Source: an uncultured bacterium
Lineage (GTDB): Bacteria > Verrucomicrobiota > Kiritimatiellia > RFP12 > UBA1067
Assembly (NCBI GenBank): GCA_902761275.1
Contig: CACWJS010000019.1
Location: 1 to 39,999 of the forward strand
DNA: 39,999 bases
Direction of reading: 5' to 3'
Shown here: one piece after another, positions 26,167 to 37,941 of the stretch
Numbering within the stretch: position 1 is the stretch's first letter
How the letters are laid out: every line of letters begins with the position of its first letter
Translations under genes and position numbers: made by a program
The notes under the pieces: model-generated
The model's input: only the letters and a program-made list of their open reading frames with translations
What the model was told of the DNA's origin: nothing
Databases searched by the model: none

Positions 26167-27615
26167 ATGATAACTAAAGATGAGTTGCAGGAACTCTTTG
26201 CTTCAACAGAGACGTATCGCATTGAGCGAACAGTATCGACCACCGACAAAGACAAATTTGGTGAGGCGGTGTGTGCGTTCGCTAACGACATGCCTGATTC
26301 GGGCAAGCCTGGCTATCTATTGATCGGTGTTCGCAATGACGGTTCTTTGAACGGGCTTAAGGCTTCCGATGTGCTTCTGCAGAAGTTTGCCGCGCTCCGC
26401 TCTGACGGCAACATACTGCCTATACCGTCCATCGCAGTCGATTCGTTTTCTTTCCCAGACGGTGATGTGATCGTCGTGGAGGTCCAGCCTTCTGACCAGC
26501 CGCCTGTCAGATATCGCGGTCGCACCTGGATTCGCATAGGGCCGCGTCGGGATATCGCCTCGCCCGCCGAAGAGACGATGCTTGCCGAGCGCAAGGCACG
26601 GAACTTTACGACATTCGATGCTCGCCCATGCTTTGGCGCGTCCCTTGACGATCTCGACATCGACCTCTTCCAGCACGATTATCTGCCCAAGGCGGTGGAC
26701 GCAGAAGTCCTTGCTGCGGATGACCGTCCAATCGAGCGCAAGTTGGAATCCCTCAGGTTCTTCAACAGCGTGTATGGCTTGCCGACAAACGCGGCCGTTC
26801 TGCTGTTCGGGAAGGATCCGCGTCGGTTTTTCCCTGGCGCATATGTCCAATATGTCAGCTTCGGCGGGCTTGATAAGGCGGCCACCATCTTGAACGAGCA
26901 CCCGTTCAAGGGTCCGATTGTGCGAATGCTCGCGCAGATCGACCTTTTCATTGAAACGACCGTTGCGCGGAAGCGCCCCGTATTCGTGACCGCATTGCGC
27001 GAAGAGACCCGCACCGACTATCCCAAAGCCGCGATACGCGAGCTTGTGATGAACGCCATCATGCATCGCGACTATCAGGGCAATGCGCCGATACACTTCT
27101 ACCAGTATGCGGATCGCCTCGAAATAGTCAACCACGGCGGACTTTATGGGCGTGCCAGGCCGGAGAATTTTCCGAACGTCAGCGATTACCGCAATCCGAT
27201 AATCGCCGAAGCCATGAAGGTGCTTGGCTACGTGAACTGCTACAACCGCGGCATAAACATGGTACAGGACGAGCTTGTCGCGAACGGCAATGGCAAGGCG
27301 GAGTTCTCATTTCGATTGATTACTGCGTTTGAGGCAAAGGTCGCACTTGCAGGAAAAGGGTCGGAGGAGAAGTTACCCGATAATGACCCGATAACCGCTG
27401 AGAAGTTGCCCGAAAGTGGCACTATAGATGGCACTATGGCACTAAGGATCATTGGGGTTATTGAAAAGGAGCCATTCGTGACGATGGATCAACTGTCGGA
27501 AAGGCTGGGTGTAGCGAGACGGACGCTTGTTCGTTATATGAATATTCTGCAAGAAAACAACCGAATAAAGCGTCTCGGCGGCAAGCGCTTCGGCCATTGG
27601 GAGATCGTCGGATGA
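26167..27615 (+). CDS. AlbA_2 (Schlafen-like) ATP-binding protein with C-terminal helix-turn-helix
   Basis: 482 residues. The N-terminal about 130 residues form an AlbA_2 domain (YLLIGVRNDGSLNGL, VVEVQPSDQPPVRYRGRTWI, RIG.RR). The middle carries the RecG-like/HATPase_c_4 block AAIRELVMNAIMHRDYQGNA with EIVNHGG. After a Pro/Glu/Asp linker comes a winged helix (MDQLSERLGVARRTLVRYMN). This architecture is common in accessory islands; members are often called putative transcriptional regulators or defence-linked ATPases, with biochemistry largely unknown. Its TGA overlaps an ATG (ATGA) that opens a cas-like start of which only 13 codons resemble the family. It has its own promoter and is framed by a 28-bp direct repeat. 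Confidence 0.85.
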   Translation: MITKDELQELFASTETYRIERTVSTTDKDKFGEAVCAFANDMPDSGKPGYLLIGVRNDGSLNGLKASDVLLQKFAALRSDGNILPIPSIAVDSFSFPDGDVIVVEVQPSDQPPVRYRGRTWIRIGPRRDIASPAEETMLAERKARNFTTFDARPCFGASLDDLDIDLFQHDYLPKAVDAEVLAADDRPIERKLESLRFFNSVYGLPTNAAVLLFGKDPRRFFPGAYVQYVSFGGLDKAATILNEHPFKGPIVRMLAQIDLFIETTVARKRPVFVTALREETRTDYPKAAIRELVMNAIMHRDYQGNAPIHFYQYADRLEIVNHGGLYGRARPENFPNVSDYRNPIIAEAMKVLGYVNCYNRGINMVQDELVANGNGKAEFSFRLITAFEAKVALAGKGSEEKLPDNDPITAEKLPESGTIDGTMALRIIGVIEKEPFVTMDQLSERLGVARRTLVRYMNILQENNRIKRLGGKRFGHWEIVG

Positions 27616-27782: not shown

Positions 27783-27811
27783 TTGCGGGAAAATCGGGGA
27801 AATGGTATAAT
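27783..27811 (+). promoter_or_regulatory. Promoter upstream of the structured region and Z1 gene
   Basis: TTGCGG (27783-27788), a 17-bp spacer and AAATGGTATAATATG with TATAAT at 27806-27811. The sequence around the box closely copies that of the AlbA_2 promoter. No plausible start codon lies just downstream; the first good gene begins 470 bp later. Confidence 0.75.
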
Positions 27812-27860
27812 ATGCATGTTCCGTGAGTGATTGCGGAGCATGATCTTTGACATTGGTTCG

Positions 27861-27895
27861 GTTTTGCAAAGTGAGCAGTTTTGCAAAATATGAGC
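27861..27895. repeat. Paired TTTTGCAAA direct repeats, possible operator
   Basis: GTTTTGCAAAGTGAGCA (27861-27877) is followed at once by GTTTTGCAAAATATGAGC (27878-27895), a direct repeat of about 17 bp. The core TTTTGCAAAA is itself palindromic. They lie about 55 bp after the -10 box. Related palindromes occur at 39774-39866. Confidence 0.7.
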
Positions 27896-28066
27896 CTCCG
27901 GCCTGCCTCGCCGCGCAAGCGGCGCGATAGGCAAAACCCCGGCAGGACGCGTTATCATAACGCGCCGCAACGGTAGGGGTGGTATTCTATATCCACCACC
28001 ACCAACCGGGGAGCTGCGGAAACGCATCCGACGCCCGCAGTACGCTACGCAACAGCGTATTGAAGC

Positions 28067-28193
28067 TTCGTGGTAAAGCCGCTAACTTTCCTAAACGAAA
28101 AGCTGAAATACGATGGTGCGCTGCGTGGACAATCCACGCGGCGCACTTTCTATTCCTTTTTTTCGTTAGGTACTTAGCGGCACCGTCCACGAA
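28067..28193. repeat. Nested inverted repeat, cruciform-forming
   Basis: Outer arms TTCGTGGTAAAGCCGCTAA (28067-28085) and TTAGCGGCACCGTCCACGAA (28174-28193) pair with a few mismatches. A second pair is TCCTAAACGAAAA against TTTTTTCGTTAGGT (28088-28100 / about 28158-28171). The centre is the 14-bp hairpin at 28116-28146. Size and nesting resemble a MITE-like or integron-type palindrome, but no transposase or integrase is in view. Confidence 0.75.
28116..28163 (+). terminator. Intrinsic terminator-like hairpin in front of the Z1 gene
   Basis: GTGCGCTGCGTGGA (28116-28129), loop CAA, TCCACGCGGCGCAC (28133-28146), one G-T wobble, then TTTCTATTCC and a run of seven T to 28163. The right arm plus TTTC (28138-28150) can alternatively pair perfectly with GAAAGTGCGCCGC at 28205-28217, which would remove the terminator. 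Candidate for attenuation of the downstream gene. Confidence 0.55.
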
Positions 28194-28284
28194 ACTGGAA
28201 TCTTGAAAGTGCGCCGCTTTTCTTTTCCGTGCCATAGCGGTGTGCTTAATGGGGTGGCGCGGAAAAGGAATTGAGTTGGAGAAA

Positions 28285-31200
28285 ATGCCGATGCCAGAGG
28301 GAAGGTCGCACTTCGCCAATTATCTTGCAACAATTGGCGGCGATAATCGGACTAAGACGAGTGTGGAATCCATCATGGGGCGCATGAACGAGTTGCTGGA
28401 AGATCGCCATGACGGACGGCTTTCGGGTCTTGTGGTGGGGCGCGTTCAATCTGGAAAGACTCGCAACTATGTTGGCCTCACGCTTAAAGCGGCTGATGAA
28501 GGATGGAATGTCATTATTGTCCTCACGAGCCCCATAACGGCATTGGCCGAGCAGACCGAGAAACGGATAAAGCGCGACTTCAAGAAATCGAAGGTCTATG
28601 CTCATAATGCAGCTGAATTGAATTTTCTTCAAGACGCCAACAATCCAGATGCAGAAGGATTGAGTGATACTGGCGCAAAGTTCTTCTTCTGGGGTGTTGC
28701 CATGAAGCAGACAACATCGCTCAGGCGCATAGCCACATGGGTGGAGAAGAACAAGAGTTACGCCAAATACATGAAGGTGCTTGTAATCGACGATGAGGCA
28801 GACAACTCAACGCCCGATTCCAATGCCGGCAAAGATAAGGACGAGGCAGAACGAGAGATTTTCATACAGAATGTGTCCGACGCCATGCTGGAGATTGATG
28901 CAGATAGGTTTGGCGTCTTGTCCGATTGGCTTGCCGACCTCTGGATGCTGGACATGCCAGACGATGCCGCCGAAACACAGGAGGCGAAAGACTGGCGCGC
29001 GCTAAAGGACTTACTTCAGTCCACGAAGAACCCCAAGAAAATAACTGCGGAGATACTTGATTCCGCAGTGTATACGAAACTTCTTGGACTGAATGCGCTC
29101 GCTTCGGAACAAGATGAGTTTGGCGACGAACTTGCCGATGTTGTGCGCAGCTTCTTTTGCGAAAACCATGCGCCGCGCTCGCCAAGAACATTTGTTGATG
29201 TGCTAAAGGCCGTATTTGAAATCGCCAAGGGGCGAAGCCGGATAAATAGTGCCATAATATCGCTTGTAGACAAGCAAAAGCAAGATGCAACGGAATACAC
29301 TTATCCATTCGCCCGATGCGCATACATCGCCTACACAGCGACGCCATACGCTTGCATTCTGAACGAGAGACCTGATCAGACCAACATATATCCAGACTTT
29401 ATCTTTTCGCTCGACAAGCCGCCAAAATACTTTGGACTCGATGAGATATACGGACAGAACCTTTTTAACGCGAGAGCCAATATGGATATCGTGCGCTCGA
29501 TTCCAGACGAAGAGGAAGGGGGGATTCTCGCGCCGATAGAAGAATCAGATTCCTTTATCAACTCAGAGGGAAGAAAAAGACCTGCCGCGCCATCCGTTCG
29601 TGTTGAGGATGACCTTACTTGCATCTGGGAAGATGGAGGTGTGCCCAATGTTGACGAAGACGGCGAGGAATCTGGCGATGAGGACTATGCGGAAGAAGGG
29701 GAAGAAGAGGAAATCATTTGGCAGACGCTGAAAGATTCCGTCGCTTGGGCGTTCTGCTGCGCTGCAGCAAGACGGTGGCGTCGCATTGAAATCGACGATC
29801 CTGCCATCAAAGAAGGCGGTCTTGACGAAGACGAACTGAACGAAAAGCTAAATGCAACCGATCGCCGATGGACGACAATGCTCTTCAATGTGTCGCAGAA
29901 GCGGCAGATACACAAGGACACGGCTGAAATTCTCGAACGCTATTTCAAATGTCGACTTTCCGACGATGAGGCACGAAAGGGCTTTCTCGACGAGTGCAAG
30001 GCGATATGGGAATCCGAGACAAAGCGCTTTGGCGTTGATCGCTTCAACGAGATTTTCAATGAAGCACGCGACGAGTCGGAGAAATACGGCAAGATTGATC
30101 CAGCTCCGAAGTGGGCGGACATCGAGCCGCACCTTGAATACTTTTTCAAGGCGCGGAATCGTCATGTCCTTGTCATAAACAGCATGGACAAGGAGTCGAG
30201 GGAGAATCAGGCGTTCTACGCGACAGGGAAGATGGGCATCAAGTCGCTGCAGGAGGATCATCTTTGGTTTATTTGCGGCGGCAACACCATTGCGCGAGGA
30301 CTGACCCTTGAGGGTCTTGTTGCAAGCTATTTTGATCGAGTAAAGAAATCTGTCGCCGTCGATACCATGACTCAGATGGGGCGGTGGTTCGGCTATCGCA
30401 TGGGCTACGAACTTTTGCCGCGAATCTGGATGGCGCCCTATTCTGTTGGCGAATTCAAGAGGACGGCTATTGTCGAGGAACGAATGCACCTTAGCATCCG
30501 TGACAACTTCGAGAACAAGGCATCTCCCTGTGACCGTGCGAACTACCAGATGGTCTATTACTATGGACGCAGACTTTCGGGCAGGGCGCGGGCTATGCAA
30601 CGGCTTGACACTGGAGTTGGCGCATACGGTACGACTAACGACATTTCCATAAAACCAGAAGATGTAAGCGCTGTGCTTGATCGAGTCACTTTATTCATGA
30701 AGCGACTGCAAGACAATTACGCACTCACCGCAGAGGAACAAAAAGAGCGAGAGAGGACATGCTTGTATGGCAGAATCCCGCTCTGGCGCAATGTTCCGAG
30801 GGGTGAAGTCGTAGAGTTCCTTGAAGACATAGCCGATCATTCGCCGGAAAATTCGCGCAAGTTCCTAAAGGGGCTTGTGAGGGAGGTAAATGCCGCGCAG
30901 GACATCCCCTGGGATGTCGTGGTGGCAGAACCGGTCAAGTCGCAGAATCGGCGAACATACGAAATCGGCGGAGCGCGGCAATATGCACTTGGACGCCCTG
31001 CGGCAACAACGGTGGCAAACGGCATGGCAAGATTTTCGGCTGCTCGACTGCATCTACCGTATTATGCAGACATTCCAACGACAGCGATAAACGCCATCGA
31101 CTTCAAGATTCTGCGCGAGAACATGGCTTCTATTGTTTCCGGTCTGCAACATGAAAAGGAGATGGGGGCGAGGCTCGACAGTCTGGAGGAGGTCTTGGAG

Positions 31201-32010
31201 CCCTTTGGCCCGGGCGATCTCCGCGAGAGATTTGAGCGCTTCTTGTTTAGCAACGACAAGGAGCCGTATGAGAATGCCTTGCCTGACGCGATACACGGCA
31301 AATTTACAGGCAAGCTTGAGGGTTATCGTAACCGTTCCAGTTCTGAATACATGGAGGCAGTTCACGAAAAGGCGGGAAACATAAAGCCAATTCTCCAGTT
31401 GTATCTCCTTGAAGCGCCAGAAGAGGCCAATCTTGGAGAGTTGCCGCTGGTTGCGTTTGCAATGTATTGGCCAGCCCATGAGCCAAGCGTATTCTGCGCC
31501 GTTACTACGGGGCTTGAAGATCGCATTCCCGCGCCGAGCAAACGGCAGTTCTGCGATGCGGTTGAAGCCGTCTTGTCTGCCTGGAACTTCCCAATGAGCG
31601 TAAAGCGGCTACGGAACTCGGTGATGGATCGTCTTGGGCCTGGCTGCACCATAAATGTATTCAATGACAACATTGCGCAGATTCCAGAAGGGCGCAAGTA
31701 TGAGCCCATGCCGAATCGCAACGCCTATATGCCGCTTGGATGGGGTGGGGAAATCGGCGTGGAGGCGCGGCTTGATGCCGAACTGCTGAAAAGTGCAATT
31801 GAGTTGCTGATGCGCGATGGAAACAAGCGAAAGATGACAGATCTTTTTGCCGATGTCCTTGCAACGCGAGAGGAACTTGGCGATTTCTTCCGCGTGGGCG
31901 ACACAAACGACAAGGCGCGATTCTCAAGGTTGTTCACCGACGAAGTGTTGGAGGCAAACGGAATCGAGAAGGTCTGCGGTAGGCCAATTACATTTCGGTA
32001 TAAGGGTTGA
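28285..32010 (+). CDS. Z1-domain ATPase (large defence-associated protein)
   Basis: 1241 residues from the ATG at 28285, next to TTGGAG; ATG 28291 fits the ribosome-binding site better and is equally possible. Walker A is GRVQSGKT (residues 52-59) and Walker B VLVIDDEAD (165-173). Helicase-like motifs GGNTIARGLTLEGL and QMGRWFGYR lie at about residues 660-705 and are characteristic of the Z1 domain. A long acidic insert (DEDGEESGDEDYAEEGEEEE) occurs near residue 465. Z1 proteins are found in prokaryotic defence loci, for example beside MutL, AIPR and DUF4420, and probably remodel or cleave DNA. No nuclease motif is evident to me. Preceded by the structured region; followed by four more island genes. 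Confidence 0.85.
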   Translation: MPMPEGRSHFANYLATIGGDNRTKTSVESIMGRMNELLEDRHDGRLSGLVVGRVQSGKTRNYVGLTLKAADEGWNVIIVLTSPITALAEQTEKRIKRDFKKSKVYAHNAAELNFLQDANNPDAEGLSDTGAKFFFWGVAMKQTTSLRRIATWVEKNKSYAKYMKVLVIDDEADNSTPDSNAGKDKDEAEREIFIQNVSDAMLEIDADRFGVLSDWLADLWMLDMPDDAAETQEAKDWRALKDLLQSTKNPKKITAEILDSAVYTKLLGLNALASEQDEFGDELADVVRSFFCENHAPRSPRTFVDVLKAVFEIAKGRSRINSAIISLVDKQKQDATEYTYPFARCAYIAYTATPYACILNERPDQTNIYPDFIFSLDKPPKYFGLDEIYGQNLFNARANMDIVRSIPDEEEGGILAPIEESDSFINSEGRKRPAAPSVRVEDDLTCIWEDGGVPNVDEDGEESGDEDYAEEGEEEEIIWQTLKDSVAWAFCCAAARRWRRIEIDDPAIKEGGLDEDELNEKLNATDRRWTTMLFNVSQKRQIHKDTAEILERYFKCRLSDDEARKGFLDECKAIWESETKRFGVDRFNEIFNEARDESEKYGKIDPAPKWADIEPHLEYFFKARNRHVLVINSMDKESRENQAFYATGKMGIKSLQEDHLWFICGGNTIARGLTLEGLVASYFDRVKKSVAVDTMTQMGRWFGYRMGYELLPRIWMAPYSVGEFKRTAIVEERMHLSIRDNFENKASPCDRANYQMVYYYGRRLSGRARAMQRLDTGVGAYGTTNDISIKPEDVSAVLDRVTLFMKRLQDNYALTAEEQKERERTCLYGRIPLWRNVPRGEVVEFLEDIADHSPENSRKFLKGLVREVNAAQDIPWDVVVAEPVKSQNRRTYEIGGARQYALGRPAATTVANGMARFSAARLHLPYYADIPTTAINAIDFKILRENMASIVSGLQHEKEMGARLDSLEEVLEPFGPGDLRERFERFLFSNDKEPYENALPDAIHGKFTGKLEGYRNRSSSEYMEAVHEKAGNIKPILQLYLLEAPEEANLGELPLVAFAMYWPAHEPSVFCAVTTGLEDRIPAPSKRQFCDAVEAVLSAWNFPMSVKRLRNSVMDRLGPGCTINVFNDNIAQIPEGRKYEPMPNRNAYMPLGWGGEIGVEARLDAELLKSAIELLMRDGNKRKMTDLFADVLATREELGDFFRVGDTNDKARFSRLFTDEVLEANGIEKVCGRPITFRYKG

Positions 32011-32322: not shown

Positions 32323-32331
32323 AAGTTGGCA

Positions 32332-32337
32332 TATAAT
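32332..32337 (+). promoter_or_regulatory. Probable promoter of the DUF2971-mod-res operon
   Basis: TATAAT within GGCATATAATGGTATATC at 32332-32337, 34 nt before the start codon. A second box TGGTATAT overlaps it. The -35 region is not clear. Confidence 0.5.
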
Positions 32338-32370
32338 GGTATATCTTACACAATGAAAGGAGTAGAAAAA

Positions 32371-33414
32371 ATGAATAACGGAATCGCAGAAAATATTGGT
32401 TCATTGATTGACGCAATGAATGCACTTCGTCCGATGAATTGTGATGAGGTGTTTCATTATGTCAGTAGGGACAAAGCAGAATACATTCTGGGCAACGACT
32501 CTGATATATTCTGCGGGCATTCAAATTTCATGAATGATAAGCAAGAGTCGTGGCAAGGATGTCTTGTTTTCTTAGAGCATCTGAAGAAGGTTATGTCGGC
32601 TGAACCATATCAAGTGTTAGAAACGAATCTACGAGAAAATTCTGCAATGGCCAAGTTAACCACATCTGGCTACTCATACTTTATGCCGTACATCATGTGT
32701 GTTACGCCACAGAAGGACTCTGCATATCAATGGCGGAATTACACGGATAAGCAGAAGGGAGGATATTGTTTCGGTTTCAACCTAAAATCGTTGCGCGACG
32801 CTATAGAGAGGCGAAACAAGAAATTTAATATGTATTCTTCTGTCTTCTTGGCACCATGCTTTTATATCGGCGAGGATGATTCTTTGATAGAAAGTTTTAT
32901 GAGGAAGTTTATAGGATCGGTTGCAAAAACGGAATTGAAAACCATTGAGGACAGGTTCAAGACTGCAGAATGCACGCAGGCAATAATTGACATAATCGGC
33001 GCAATCTTTACGCTGGCCCCACTTTTCAAGGATAAAAAGTGGAAGCGTGAGAGAGAATGGCGATTGATTTTAAAGAAAGCACATGTGGCTGTTAATCAGA
33101 GATATGTTCGGTCTCATCTGGCAGACATCTGCGAGCATCCATACAACCTGATGTCGTCAATCATACTGTCGCCTCATGGGAATGAGGCAGAATTGTTGCA
33201 ATATTTGTCCTCTAAATTGGCTGCTGCCGTGGGTGTGATTTCGTCAAGTAAGGTGAGCAAGCCAATTGTAGATTATTATATAACTCCAGTAGAAATCGAT
33301 AAGGATTACGAAGAGGATGTCCTTGCTAAACTGGAAAAGGATGAGGCTTATTCAATAGCATCTCAGGAGGAGTATCGCGCGGAACACCCAAAGGAGACTC
33401 CGAGCCATGCCTGA
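32371..33414 (+). CDS. DUF2971 family protein
   Basis: 347 residues from the ATG at 32371, which follows AAAGGAG by 8 nt. Features of DUF2971: an N-terminal FHYVSRDKAEYIL (resembling LYHYTS-type openings), FMNDKQES, WRNYTDKQKGGYCFGF, and the C-terminal KWKREREWRLIL. Function unknown; family members often sit in defence islands and toxin-like contexts. The gene is visibly AT-richer than its neighbours and than the first 25 kb. Its last 8 nt overlap the start of mod, so it belongs to the restriction-modification operon rather than to a separate cassette. Confidence 0.8.
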   Translation: MNNGIAENIGSLIDAMNALRPMNCDEVFHYVSRDKAEYILGNDSDIFCGHSNFMNDKQESWQGCLVFLEHLKKVMSAEPYQVLETNLRENSAMAKLTTSGYSYFMPYIMCVTPQKDSAYQWRNYTDKQKGGYCFGFNLKSLRDAIERRNKKFNMYSSVFLAPCFYIGEDDSLIESFMRKFIGSVAKTELKTIEDRFKTAECTQAIIDIIGAIFTLAPLFKDKKWKREREWRLILKKAHVAVNQRYVRSHLADICEHPYNLMSSIILSPHGNEAELLQYLSSKLAAAVGVISSSKVSKPIVDYYITPVEIDKDYEEDVLAKLEKDEAYSIASQEEYRAEHPKETPSHA

Positions 33415-35197
33415 CAAGAAGTTGCAGAAGCTTGAGCTGACTTGGATTGGCAAAGAGAAGCGGGAGAGGGTCGAGCCGAGGGTATTGGTCGAGAAGCCGG
33501 AACTTTCCCATCACGCCGCGATGCGGCGGCGCGATGGGAAAGATATCTTTGACAACATGCTTATTCATGGCGATAATCTCATTTCGCTCTCGGCTCTTGA
33601 AGCGGAGTTTGCAGGACGGATTCGGTGCGTGTATATCGATCCCCCTTATAACACGGGAACGGCGTTTGCGCATTATGATGATGGATTGGAACATTCTATT
33701 TGGCTTGGGTTGATGAGGGAACGGTTGGAGTCGCTTAATAAGTTGCTTGCGAAAGATGGGAGTATTTGGATTTCAATAGACGATAGAGAAGAAGCGTATC
33801 TCAAAGTGATGTGTGATGAGATATTTGGACGCGACTGTTTTGTTTCCAATGTAGCGTGGCAACGCACTTATTCGACTCGAAATGACGCCAAAGGAATTGT
33901 CAACGAGGTTGAGCATATACTTGTTTATTCAAAGCAACCTGGTTGGCAGCCAAATAAACTGCCGCGAACAGCAGAAATGGACGATAAATATAAAAACCCA
34001 GATAACGATATTGAGCCGTGGAAAAGCACAGATGCTTTAGCGCCTGACTCTGTTGCACATCAAGGAATGGTGTATGCTATTCAAAATCCAATTACAGGGA
34101 ATTTGATTTATCCAACGCCGGGGCGTCATTGGGCGTATGATCAGAATGTTATCCTTGGCTTTTTGAATGGTTGGACGGATTATGAGTTAAGAGAAATTGA
34201 TGATGTTGAGAAGCGCGCTGCTATTTGTGGAATAGGGGTTGATGAAGTGCGCAAGGGGGTGAAGGCAATTATGCTGGTAAAGCCAATAGAAGAATCGAAG
34301 GCCGATGCAGAAACAGTGTTAAATCGTGGTCGGTGGCCAAGGATCTACTTTATGAAAGGTGGCAAAGGGGGAATCGCACGAAAGACATACCTATCATCTG
34401 TTGGCGGTGTTGCCCCGACAAACTTATGGGAATACAAGGATGTCGGACATACGGACGAGGCGAAGAAGGAGATACTTGCATTGTTTAAGGGCAAGGCACC
34501 ATTTGACACGCCGAAACCTGAGCGGTTGATTAAGCGCGTTCTTGAAGTGGCTACCAAGGAGGGCGACTTGGTGCTTGACTCATTCCTTGGGAGCGGAACA
34601 ACTGCTGCCGTTGCACACAAGATGAGGAGACGGTGGATTGGCATTGAACTTCTTGATCATTGCTACACTAATTGCGCCCCGCGTATGAACAAGGTGATTG
34701 ACGGCGAGGATGCGGGTGGAATTACGAAAGCCGTTGACTGGAAGGGCGGAGGTGGGTATCGCTTCTATGAGCTTGCGCCGACGCTTATTACGAAAGACCA
34801 ATGGGGGCAAGAAGTCATCAACCGCGACTACAATCCCGCGATGCTTGCTGAGGCGGTTTGCAAGCTTGAGGGCTATATCTATGCGCCGAGTCAGGAGGAA
34901 TACTTCATTCACGGCCACGCCACAGAAAAGGCGTTCATCTATGTTACGACGAACTACATGCGCAAGAAGAACTTTGCCGCAATCAGTGAACGGCTGGGTG
35001 CGGGATGCCAGTTGCTAATCTGTTGCAAGGCGTTTGAGAAGGCATCGGTGGATTCCTTCGACAACCTGACAGTCAAGAAGATTCCAGATGCAGTGTTGAA
35101 GAAATGCGAGTGGGGGCACGATGACTACAGTCTCAATGTCGAGAACCTTCCGATGGCGAAGGAAGAGGAAACGGTCGAGCAAATGGAGCTGCTATGA
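33407..35197 (+). CDS. Type III restriction-modification DNA N6-adenine methyltransferase (Mod)
   Basis: 596 residues. Catalytic motif IV DPPY at residues 78-81 (VYIDPPYNTGTAF), followed by the target-recognition region, and AdoMet motif I FLGSGTT at about 391-397; this order is the beta class typical of type III Mod. It methylates one strand of a short asymmetric site and guides Res. The start overlaps the DUF2971 stop; the stop overlaps the res start as ATGA. By eye the central part (about 33720-34430), which should contain target recognition, is AT-richer than the ends, as seen when recognition domains are exchanged. No simple-sequence tract for phase variation is present. Confidence 0.93.
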   Translation: MPDKKLQKLELTWIGKEKRERVEPRVLVEKPELSHHAAMRRRDGKDIFDNMLIHGDNLISLSALEAEFAGRIRCVYIDPPYNTGTAFAHYDDGLEHSIWLGLMRERLESLNKLLAKDGSIWISIDDREEAYLKVMCDEIFGRDCFVSNVAWQRTYSTRNDAKGIVNEVEHILVYSKQPGWQPNKLPRTAEMDDKYKNPDNDIEPWKSTDALAPDSVAHQGMVYAIQNPITGNLIYPTPGRHWAYDQNVILGFLNGWTDYELREIDDVEKRAAICGIGVDEVRKGVKAIMLVKPIEESKADAETVLNRGRWPRIYFMKGGKGGIARKTYLSSVGGVAPTNLWEYKDVGHTDEAKKEILALFKGKAPFDTPKPERLIKRVLEVATKEGDLVLDSFLGSGTTAAVAHKMRRRWIGIELLDHCYTNCAPRMNKVIDGEDAGGITKAVDWKGGGGYRFYELAPTLITKDQWGQEVINRDYNPAMLAEAVCKLEGYIYAPSQEEYFIHGHATEKAFIYVTTNYMRKKNFAAISERLGAGCQLLICCKAFEKASVDSFDNLTVKKIPDAVLKKCEWGHDDYSLNVENLPMAKEEETVEQMELL

Positions 35198-37941
35198 ACA
35201 GTGGAATTGTCAGGGATATCAAGAACCGCTTAAGTTTGCGCAAACCGCAAGCCGATTCGCTGGAGTTGCTGGCGAAGATTGCCGATGCTGGCATACTCAA
35301 GAAGGATGCCGATGTTGCGGCGCAACTTGATGCGGTCAAGGCGGTAGCACCAACTGTGACGGCTTTTGATCGTGATTTTTGCTCTCTTTGCTTCGCGTTG
35401 GCGACTGGCGTTGGAAAGACGCGGCTGATGGGTGCGTTCATCGCGTATCTCCACGAGGCACATGGTATGCGCAACTTCGTTGTCATTGCGCCGAATCTCA
35501 CGATATACGAGAAGTTGATCTCCGATTTTACGCCAGGAACTCTGAAATATGTCTTCAAGGGAATCAAAGAGTTCGCGGCAAATCCGCCGGTGATTATCAC
35601 TGGCGAAACCTACCAGTCTGGCAAGGGTGTTCAGGCGAGCGATCTGTTAGGAGAGACGGTTGTAATAAACATCTTCAACATCGCCAAGTTGACCGCTAAG
35701 GACAAAGGGCATTTTGCAGCTGACGATGCAAAGGCAAAGGTTGCGAGGATTCGGCGGCTTGTAGAGACTATCGGGCAGAGCTACTTCGACTATCTTGCGA
35801 GTCGTGACGATTTAGTGGTGTTGATGGACGAGTCGCATCGTTATCGCGCCGAGGCGGGAATGGCGGCTATAAACGAACTGCGGCCAGTTTTGGGCATTGA
35901 GTTGACGGCCACGCCGCGAGTTGTGAAGGGGGCAAAGGAGATACCCTTTAACAATATCGCATACGAATATGCTCTTGCCAAAGCGATGGCAGATGGTTTC
36001 GTGAAAGAACCTGCGATAGCGACGCGCATGGGATTCAACATCACGGATCATGTCAAGGATTCCGACGAGCTGGAACGGTTGAAACTGAACGATGCGGCTT
36101 TGATACACGAGAACACCAAAGCAGCGCTCACGAATTGGGCGCAGAACCACAACAAGCCGGTCGTCAAGCCGTTTATACTGGTGGTTGCGGGTGACAAAGC
36201 TCATGCGGACGCGCTTGAAGAATACATGGCAAGCGATGGCTTTAGAAAGGGCGCATACAAGGGTAAGATCGTCAAGGTGTATTCCGGCATGAGCGCCGAG
36301 AAGGACGCTGAGATGGTCGGGCAACTCTTGGAGATAGAGAAGTCGGGGAATCCAGTTGAAATAGTCATTCATGTCAACAAGCTAAGCGAGGGGTGGGATG
36401 TCACAAATCTCTACACCATAGTGCCGCTCAGAGCAGCGAACTCGGTCAACCTCGTCGAGCAGTCAATAGGTCGAGGTCTGCGACTGCCATACGGCGAACG
36501 AACAGGCGACGAGGCGGTAGATACTCTAACTGTTGTTTCGCATGACAACTATGCTGCGGTTATCAGCAAGGCAAGAGAACAGAAGGGGATTATATTCAAG
36601 AGCTATGTCATAGGCGACAACATCCCCGACAAGGGAAAGCGAGTTGAAAGCATAGCGCCTGTGAGTCAGTCTCTTGCGGAGGCAGCGAAGAGCGGTAATG
36701 CGAAAGACGCCTATATTCCGATCGGTGCTGGGATAACGGCAGGGGGGCTTACGGCAGAGATGGGGAACGCGCTTGGTGCCGTGAACAAGGTCATGGAAGA
36801 GTTGTTGGATGAAAGGAAAGGGTGCGATCTTTCGGACGAGGCGACATTTAACGCCGTTGCAGAGGCGGCGGCAAGGGAGGTGCAAGAGCAGTCTGGCGCG
36901 ACTGTGAGCAGGGAAGTGGTGGAGAAAGCTTGCAGGGTCGTTGAGCAGACTACGATTGCGATACCGAGGGTCGAAGCGGTGCCGAAGGGCGTGGTAGTGC
37001 AGGGATTTGAATCGTTCAAGCTTGACACCGAGCCGTTGAAGAGTCTCAATCCTGTTGACAGTGGCTTGCGAGTCACGACGATCCGCGAGCAGAAGGCAGT
37101 TAGGTCGATTGCGCGAGAGGCAGATTCTGGCGACAGGGCGGAAAATTATCTTTCCGCGCTTATAGGCAAGTTACGAGAGGCGGAGGAAATAGACTACGAG
37201 GGTAATTCCGAGCTTGTTGTCGGGCTTGCAACGGAAGCGATTGAATTCATAGCAAAGCGTTTTGAGGGGAATGTGGCGGCAAATGTTATCAGCAATAACA
37301 TGGAAAAGGTTGCGTCTATCATTCGCAATCAGTTGACTGCCCATGCAGTTTACGAAGATGCCGAATACGAGTTTAGGGTAACTCCAGGATGTGTCAAGCT
37401 TGGGCTTTCAAGTGCATTGCTACTTGAAACAGAACCAGTGCGCGACTTTAGGGCGGCGCTCAAAGAGGGCGAGAAAAGCAGAATCAAGTCCATGGTGTTC
37501 AGCGGCTTCAAGAAGTGCCTTTATGAGAAGCAGAAGTTTGACAGCAATCCGGAGCGGAAGTTTGCCGAGATACTGGAGGACGGCAAGGAGGTCGAGAAGT
37601 GGTTTAGGCCAGATTCGAGCAGGTTTTCAATACGGCGCAACAACGGCGAAAACTACTTTCCTGATTTCGTCGTGGAGACCAAAGATATGAAATACATCTG
37701 TGAGGTTAAGGCCGATAAGAAGGTAAACGATCCGGATGTGATTGACAAGTGGAACGCTGCCGTTGAATGGTGCAATGCCGCGTCGGAGGCGGAGTCGGCG
37801 GCTGGACACAAGGAATGGCGGTATTTGTTCATCAAGGAAAGCCAGATCGACGAGGCGATGGTTTTCAAGGTGGCAATCGCCAAGTTCGTCGAGACTGACA
37901 GGCGAGAGGTGGCGAAGAATGCTTCTATTGTCGGATTTTAA
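35194..37941 (+). CDS. Type III restriction enzyme helicase-nuclease (Res)
   Basis: 915 residues. SF2 helicase Walker A ATGVGKT at residues 70-76, DEAD-box variant MDESHRYR (about 211-218), TATPR, and later QSIGRGLRLPYG (motif VI). The C-terminal nuclease is of the PD-(D/E)xK type: PDFVVETKDMKYICEVKADK, about residues 823-842. With Mod it cleaves DNA after ATP-driven communication between two unmethylated sites. ATGA overlap with mod fixes the stoichiometric coupling. All motifs look intact, so the enzyme is likely active. Confidence 0.93.
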   Translation: MNSGIVRDIKNRLSLRKPQADSLELLAKIADAGILKKDADVAAQLDAVKAVAPTVTAFDRDFCSLCFALATGVGKTRLMGAFIAYLHEAHGMRNFVVIAPNLTIYEKLISDFTPGTLKYVFKGIKEFAANPPVIITGETYQSGKGVQASDLLGETVVINIFNIAKLTAKDKGHFAADDAKAKVARIRRLVETIGQSYFDYLASRDDLVVLMDESHRYRAEAGMAAINELRPVLGIELTATPRVVKGAKEIPFNNIAYEYALAKAMADGFVKEPAIATRMGFNITDHVKDSDELERLKLNDAALIHENTKAALTNWAQNHNKPVVKPFILVVAGDKAHADALEEYMASDGFRKGAYKGKIVKVYSGMSAEKDAEMVGQLLEIEKSGNPVEIVIHVNKLSEGWDVTNLYTIVPLRAANSVNLVEQSIGRGLRLPYGERTGDEAVDTLTVVSHDNYAAVISKAREQKGIIFKSYVIGDNIPDKGKRVESIAPVSQSLAEAAKSGNAKDAYIPIGAGITAGGLTAEMGNALGAVNKVMEELLDERKGCDLSDEATFNAVAEAAAREVQEQSGATVSREVVEKACRVVEQTTIAIPRVEAVPKGVVVQGFESFKLDTEPLKSLNPVDSGLRVTTIREQKAVRSIAREADSGDRAENYLSALIGKLREAEEIDYEGNSELVVGLATEAIEFIAKRFEGNVAANVISNNMEKVASIIRNQLTAHAVYEDAEYEFRVTPGCVKLGLSSALLLETEPVRDFRAALKEGEKSRIKSMVFSGFKKCLYEKQKFDSNPERKFAEILEDGKEVEKWFRPDSSRFSIRRNNGENYFPDFVVETKDMKYICEVKADKKVNDPDVIDKWNAAVEWCNAASEAESAAGHKEWRYLFIKESQIDEAMVFKVAIAKFVETDRREVAKNASIVGF

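Follow-up and report, generated by a model that had tools for sequence, protein, structure and literature searches.

The leader of the Z1 gene

The window analysed here is a 39,999-nt stretch of contig CACWJS010000019.1, from an uncultured bacterium of the Kiritimatiellia (Verrucomicrobiota; assembly GCA_902761275.1), in which positions 27783-28284 comprise a promoter and an untranslated leader of about 470 nt directly 5' of the ATG (28285) of a gene encoding a Z1-domain protein. An initial annotation of this region had described a promoter, an operator-like pair of repeats, stacked hairpins and a large nested inverted repeat before a Z1 start at 28285, and had proposed that they constitute an attenuator, an RNA of a defence system or a palindromic mobile relic. 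The observation of a structured leader was confirmed, whereas of the three interpretations only the first was upheld: judging from the conservation described below, the leader of the Z1 operon is very probably a cis-acting two-state attenuator and a member of a conserved family of cis-regulatory RNAs.

The promoter (27783-27811; all window features given here lie on the forward strand) combines a TTGCGG -35 element (27783-27788) and the TATAAT -10 box (27806-27811) of the strong promoter noted initially with a 17-nt spacer and an extended -10 TGG. A TATAAT-like box is also found upstream of most copies of the family. The leader that follows (27820-28284) folds far better than shuffled sequences (-207.8 versus -157.4 ± 6.4 kcal/mol; z = -7.9), with none of 100 shuffles reaching its energy, in agreement with the stacked hairpins described at the outset.

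A recurring RNA core with two exclusive folds

The 3' part of the leader (28046-28226) recurs at 70-82% identity at many sites in the window's own genome and in its relatives. A covariance model (R1) was built from the recurring copies and a broader model (R2) was used for searches of the phylum; together they define a conserved core at 28042-28226. With R1, 44 of the 58 congeneric genomes proved to carry copies, 1-8 in each. A copy search of the window's own genome yielded five dispersed copies; four are strong, including that of the window, and the fifth (C87) is a short form confirmed by eye. At E ≤ 1e-5, R2 matched 140 of the 388 phylum genomes sampled, spread over 71 of 198 genera. These E-values are rough, the model searches covered one phylum, and the genomes sampled were metagenome-assembled genomes (MAGs) or species genomes. 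R1 matches below about 50 bits, a score that even the antisense of a true copy attains, were not accepted on score, and the distant ones used were checked by eye. Inspected singly, distant members keep the order of the helices with almost wholly different sequence. The genomes returned by a pattern search over named genomes were gut MAGs, almost all of them with the label Kiritimatiellae, Lentisphaerae, Verrucomicrobia or unclassified bacterium. No family in Rfam 15 matched at gathering or relaxed thresholds, the only sub-threshold matches being of chance type (that to MIR840, E 0.001, reflects merely a long hairpin); phage, plasmid and viral collections gave no match to the RNA, and no description of it was found in the literature. 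The core is hence one member of a phylum-wide RNA family that has several copies per genome and no Rfam entry.

The core accommodates two folds. Fold A is a single long rod formed by helices H3, H4, H5 and H6, preceded by H1, a nearly invariant local UACG/CGUA hairpin (28046-28059) paired in 99% of 101 copies. H3 (28068-28074/28186-28192) closes the large nested inverted repeat that had been described initially (28068-28192), and is followed inwards by H4 (28079-28086/28173-28180), H5 (28094-28101/28160-28167) and the hairpin H6 (28116-28146; GUGCGCUGCGUGG/CCACGCGGCGCAC), which is 91-97% paired. Fold B consists of a 5' helix, H2, and a terminator-type stem, H7, followed by a U-tract. H2 pairs GCGUAU..AGCUU (28056-28068) with AAGCU..AUACG (28100-28112), is 95-96% paired, and in a constrained fold extends to 28047-28051 with 28117-28121, spanning 28047-28121 in all. 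H7 (28138-28150/28205-28217) is the 13-nt alternative pairing that had been proposed for 28205-28217, and 95% of its cells are paired in the 101 copies. Since strands are shared, H2 rules out H1 and conflicts with the rod of H3-H5, and H7 and H6 rule each other out; the 3' arm of H6 overlaps the 5' arm of H7, so that H6 occupies the position of an antiterminator. Enforced in turn, the folds differ little in energy, with means of -75.1 (A) and -70.6 (B) kcal/mol.

Both folds are supported by compensatory change. Tree-aware covariation on the 101 copies gave E < 0.025 for most pairs of H3, for the centre of H5 and for several pairs of H4. As many as four pair types occur, with 98-100% of copies paired (H3, 98-100%; H5 centre, 99-100%). 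Two H7 pairs reached E = 0.025, and two-sided changes are seen in this stem at 28139-28216, 28144-28211, 28145-28210 and 28147-28208. A native-versus-swapped test of our own making, which compares arms taken from one RNA with arms exchanged between RNAs, was applied to 55 diverged copies. Native arms paired better in H2 (z = -12), H3 (-27), H4 (-18), H5 (-29), H6 (-13.5) and H7 (-15), and four control pairs of mismatched arms scored between -0.5 and -1.4. Compensatory changes in the stems, which according to the initial annotation would support an RNA, are thus present. On this strand G-U pairs occur often and A-C mispairs seldom, and therefore its RNA is the functional form. Two mutually exclusive structures are accordingly both conserved, as in an attenuator leader. 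The same test gave z = -7 for H9, a short GGU/ACC hairpin (28169-28184) with the H4 3' strand in its loop, which pair counts also make a candidate element of fold B. A further hairpin, HX (GAAA[H4 strand]UUUC), would turn H4 into a kissing loop in fold B; its swap test was weak (z = -2.1) and it is not claimed. Unpaired GAAA, UUUU, GGC and GCC stretches around H4 are conserved.

The U-tract UUUUCUUUU (28218-28226) lies directly 3' of H7. In many distant members a run of five to eight U follows H7 directly (for example L229, GAGCGUAUUC/GAAUACGCUCUUUUUUU, as well as L227 and L069), so that stem and tract have the make-up of an intrinsic terminator, clear in these members and reading UUUUCUUUU in the window. 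A terminator had initially been placed elsewhere, at a last hairpin ending in T7. That run (28157-28163) does not form a hairpin tail and instead enters the 3' arm of H5, the conserved terminator-like unit being 28138-28150/28205-28217 with the tract at 28218-28226. Within the window's bacterial family the tract is pyrimidine-rich and doubles as the 5' arm of a last hairpin, H8 (28219-28235/28254-28270; swap z = -11.7), which includes the AAAAGGAA region before the start codon and holds the Shine-Dalgarno region in its 3' arm. The Shine-Dalgarno core is mostly paired in 64 of 70 copies, and part of the control may have moved from termination to translation in this bacterial family.

Downstream genes and the boxA module

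A same-strand start codon follows the core at 37-116 nt (median 57) in 94 of 100 family-level copies, which places the RNA just upstream of a same-strand gene. Together with the covariation for two exclusive folds and the conserved terminator-like unit, this near-fixed distance strongly supports the attenuator among the options initially raised. The genes themselves are unrelated: among the top 25 families listed are BspA repeats (7), FGE-sulfatase (5), ResIII (4), FRG, SNF2 and MBOAT acyltransferases (3 each), kinases (2) and many others. About 14 of the 94 first genes are of defence type (Z1, FRG, HsdM, the HsdR N-terminus, BrxA, PLD/SNF2 helicases, ResIII, PD-(D/E)XK and DUF2971). A second link to Z1 is provided by leader L113, which precedes a protein that shares 43% identity with the Z1 protein of the window across 758 residues. 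One leader (L135) lies directly before a DUF2971-like protein, and two distant ones (L069, L073) precede small XRE-type helix-turn-helix-like proteins. Seven other distant leaders (L066, L068, L075, L210, L213, L220 and L225) stand before related-looking secreted or membrane proteins that share a region resembling ..EYxxFMxxxVxDIYDLE.., which may point to the target that the RNA originally had.

Between promoter and core, the window leader begins with a hairpin (27820-27837; UCCGUGA..UUGCGGA) that is followed by a boxA-like sequence, GATCTTTGACAT (27842-27853), similar to the boxA before 16S rRNA. Motif counts show that GHTCTTTGACATA occurs between promoter and core in 67 of 98 leaders of the window's bacterial family, against 2.6 expected and 1 on the reverse strand, and all three occurrences of TGNTCTTTGACATNGG in the window's own genome fall inside leaders of the RNA family. 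Similar boxes are found in several rrn leaders of the genus and the bacterial family, and in one of them (L192) the box sits behind a similar promoter and hairpin; leaders and rrn leaders of the same organisms thus have the motif in common, at the level of this bacterial family only. The box is missing from some copies within that family and from C87, and it was found in 3 of 34 distant members (1.1 expected), so it was rejected as a general part of the RNA. Because distant members are without it, boxA appears to be an added module, outside the ancestral switch. boxA sequences are known in mRNA leaders other than those of rrn operons, such as that of suhB, and the gamma-proteobacterial consensus is GYTCTTTAANA (PMC5725501). 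The boxes in the leaders described here would recruit Nus factors.

The remainder of the 5' part is less constant. The two TTTTGCAAA copies (27862-27870 and 27879-27887), initially read as an operator pair, are the two arms of one predicted hairpin (27855-27896), in place of which relatives carry other stems and sequences. A family-specific 5' domain (27897-28041) follows, comprising in its predicted fold an ACCCCG../..CGGGGAG helix, inserted palindromes and the hairpin P0 (CTGCGG, 28014-28019; CCGCAG, 28035-28040); by inspection, without statistics, relatives carry the compensatory forms CCUCG/CGAGG and CCUUGG/CCAAGG. In this part of the leader, a 258-bp stretch has a 97% identical counterpart in a related genome, G002. 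In locus L095 of that genome (G002:C29; reverse strand, about 213-1602), a leader with 97% identity to the 5' part of that of the window breaks off just inside the core; a new promoter comes next, with a gene pair resembling an antitoxin and a PIN-type toxin, and 1 kb further a second leader precedes brxA. The window domain also contains, at 27945-28002, a short dispersed palindrome (GGTAGGG[~9-bp stem]..CCG) with the look of a repetitive extragenic palindromic (REP) repeat, which is nested in loops of several leaders (also L003, L010, L019, L055, L057, L091, L117 and L126) and occurs elsewhere in the fetched loci.

The first gene under the window leader (28285-32010) begins at the ATG initially assigned to it and encodes a Z1-domain, MzaC-like protein (Pfam Z1, E 2.6e-36; PADLOC MzaC, 2.3e-29), which scores 132.7 bits against the NCBIfam MzaC model, below its cut-off of 1500. 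An Mza defence system, taken as an MzaC above cut-off accompanied by other Mza genes, is not found here, the neighbours being DUF2971 and type III restriction-modification genes. Following Z1, positions 32326-37941 encode a DUF2971 protein, a type III methyltransferase and a type III restriction subunit whose C-terminal nuclease domain is TnsA-like. Immediately before the leader, 26167-27615 encodes a Schlafen AlbA_2/HATPase_c_4 protein with a C-terminal winged helix, possibly a regulator or a defence gene.

Proposed mechanism and comparison with known systems

Under the attenuator reading, RNA polymerase would start near 27817, pass the rrn-type boxA where the window's bacterial family carries it, and then transcribe the core. 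In fold A the rod of H3, H4, H5 and H6 would hold the 5' arm of the terminator stem within H6. In fold B, H2 would close the 5' half and free that arm, H7 would form before the U-tract and transcription would stop; in the window's bacterial family H8 would additionally cover the ribosome-binding region. Since the terminator belongs to fold B, this fold would be the OFF state and fold A the ON state, and the choice between them would set expression of the following gene, whatever that gene is. The fold would be selected by a cellular cue, such as a ligand or small molecule, a protein, the elongation rate or a boxA-modified polymerase, and the variety of the genes speaks for a signal of general kind over the product of a pathway. 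More tentatively, and with slightly less than even confidence, we propose a phylum-wide, previously undescribed RNA switch that responds to a general signal and gates defence and surface-protein operons, and that in one gut family has been combined with a boxA antitermination module of the rrn type.

Several points weigh against this interpretation. The U-tract of the window is interrupted, and therefore termination may be weak there and control perhaps mainly translational; the GGAG of the window (28278-28281), for its part, falls outside H8. By predicted energy, fold A would be preferred even when no cue acts. The start-codon distances use open reading frames chosen by script and looked for only downstream on the same strand, and the covariation null is our own imitation of the R-scape approach, run with 40 simulations. 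boxA is not general, and no common pathway links the downstream genes, which leaves no ligand to name.

The alternative that fares best is a specific form of the attenuator, an orphan riboswitch in which the core would be an aptamer for a general small molecule or ion, such as a second messenger, that selects fold A or B. Two exclusive folds, the conserved unpaired stretches around H4 and the many copies per genome before unrelated genes are consistent with it, but the downstream genes hint at no ligand and conservation is strongest in the re-pairing strands, with no clear pocket; we give it somewhat less than even odds. We consider it unlikely that the leader acts in antitermination of the rrn/put type, with boxA loading a Nus complex and the structured RNA helping polymerase through the terminator and long operons. 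The promoter-hairpin-boxA layout is that of the rrn leader of the genus, the box is frequent in leaders of the bacterial family and its extended form is confined to leaders in the window's own genome, yet core and terminator are kept without boxA outside the bacterial family, and within it some copies dispense with the box. A separate trans-acting small RNA, or an RNA part of a defence system (retron-like or a toxin-RNA pair), is highly improbable: the element has its own promoter, a terminator-like end and a stable fold, but a same-strand gene stands at a near-fixed distance in nearly all copies, and these genes are mostly not of defence type. Moreover, a scan of the nine adjacent window genes gave no match to a reverse transcriptase model and no ToxN-like gene, and the region contains no tandem array. 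Integron attC sites, OMEGA guide RNAs, retrons and type III toxin-RNA systems were dropped, the partner gene or the layout being missing. We give almost no credence to a palindromic mobile element or relic of the miniature inverted-repeat or REP kind, placed regardless of genes and free of function-preserving changes, since the dispersed copies, some with nested GGTAGGG palindromes, keep compensatory pairs, G-U pairs on one strand only, their promoter and the start codon that follows, and conservation of the structure spans the phylum, with no phage, plasmid or viral match.

The presence of the leader before restriction, BREX, FRG and Z1 genes and before surface proteins suggests a common RNA switch over costly accessory operons. 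Alignments and covariance seeds are available and the strands to mutate are known exactly, so that its ligand or trigger becomes a concrete question.

Among candidate RNAs from published surveys (PMC2864571, PMC8632094, PMC11109978), which likewise include covarying leader RNAs without a known ligand, the motif listed for Lentisphaerae in 2010, Acido-Lenti-1, was annotated as not cis-regulatory (PMC2864571) and does not match the window RNA; neither Verrucomicrobia nor Kiritimatiellae are named in the main text of either later survey (PMC8632094, PMC11109978). Like rrn boxA/Nus and suhB-type leaders, the window leader presents a promoter, a hairpin and then a boxA-like G[ATC]TCTTTGACA near the rrn boxA of the same bacteria; unlike them, it continues into a two-state attenuator core, its boxA is limited to one bacterial family and Nus binding is putative. 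With terminator/antiterminator attenuators and riboswitches it shares a 5' leader position, two exclusive folds of which one carries an intrinsic terminator, a gene just downstream and many copies in unrelated genomes, and it differs from the known ones in that it has no Rfam match and precedes genes without a common pathway.
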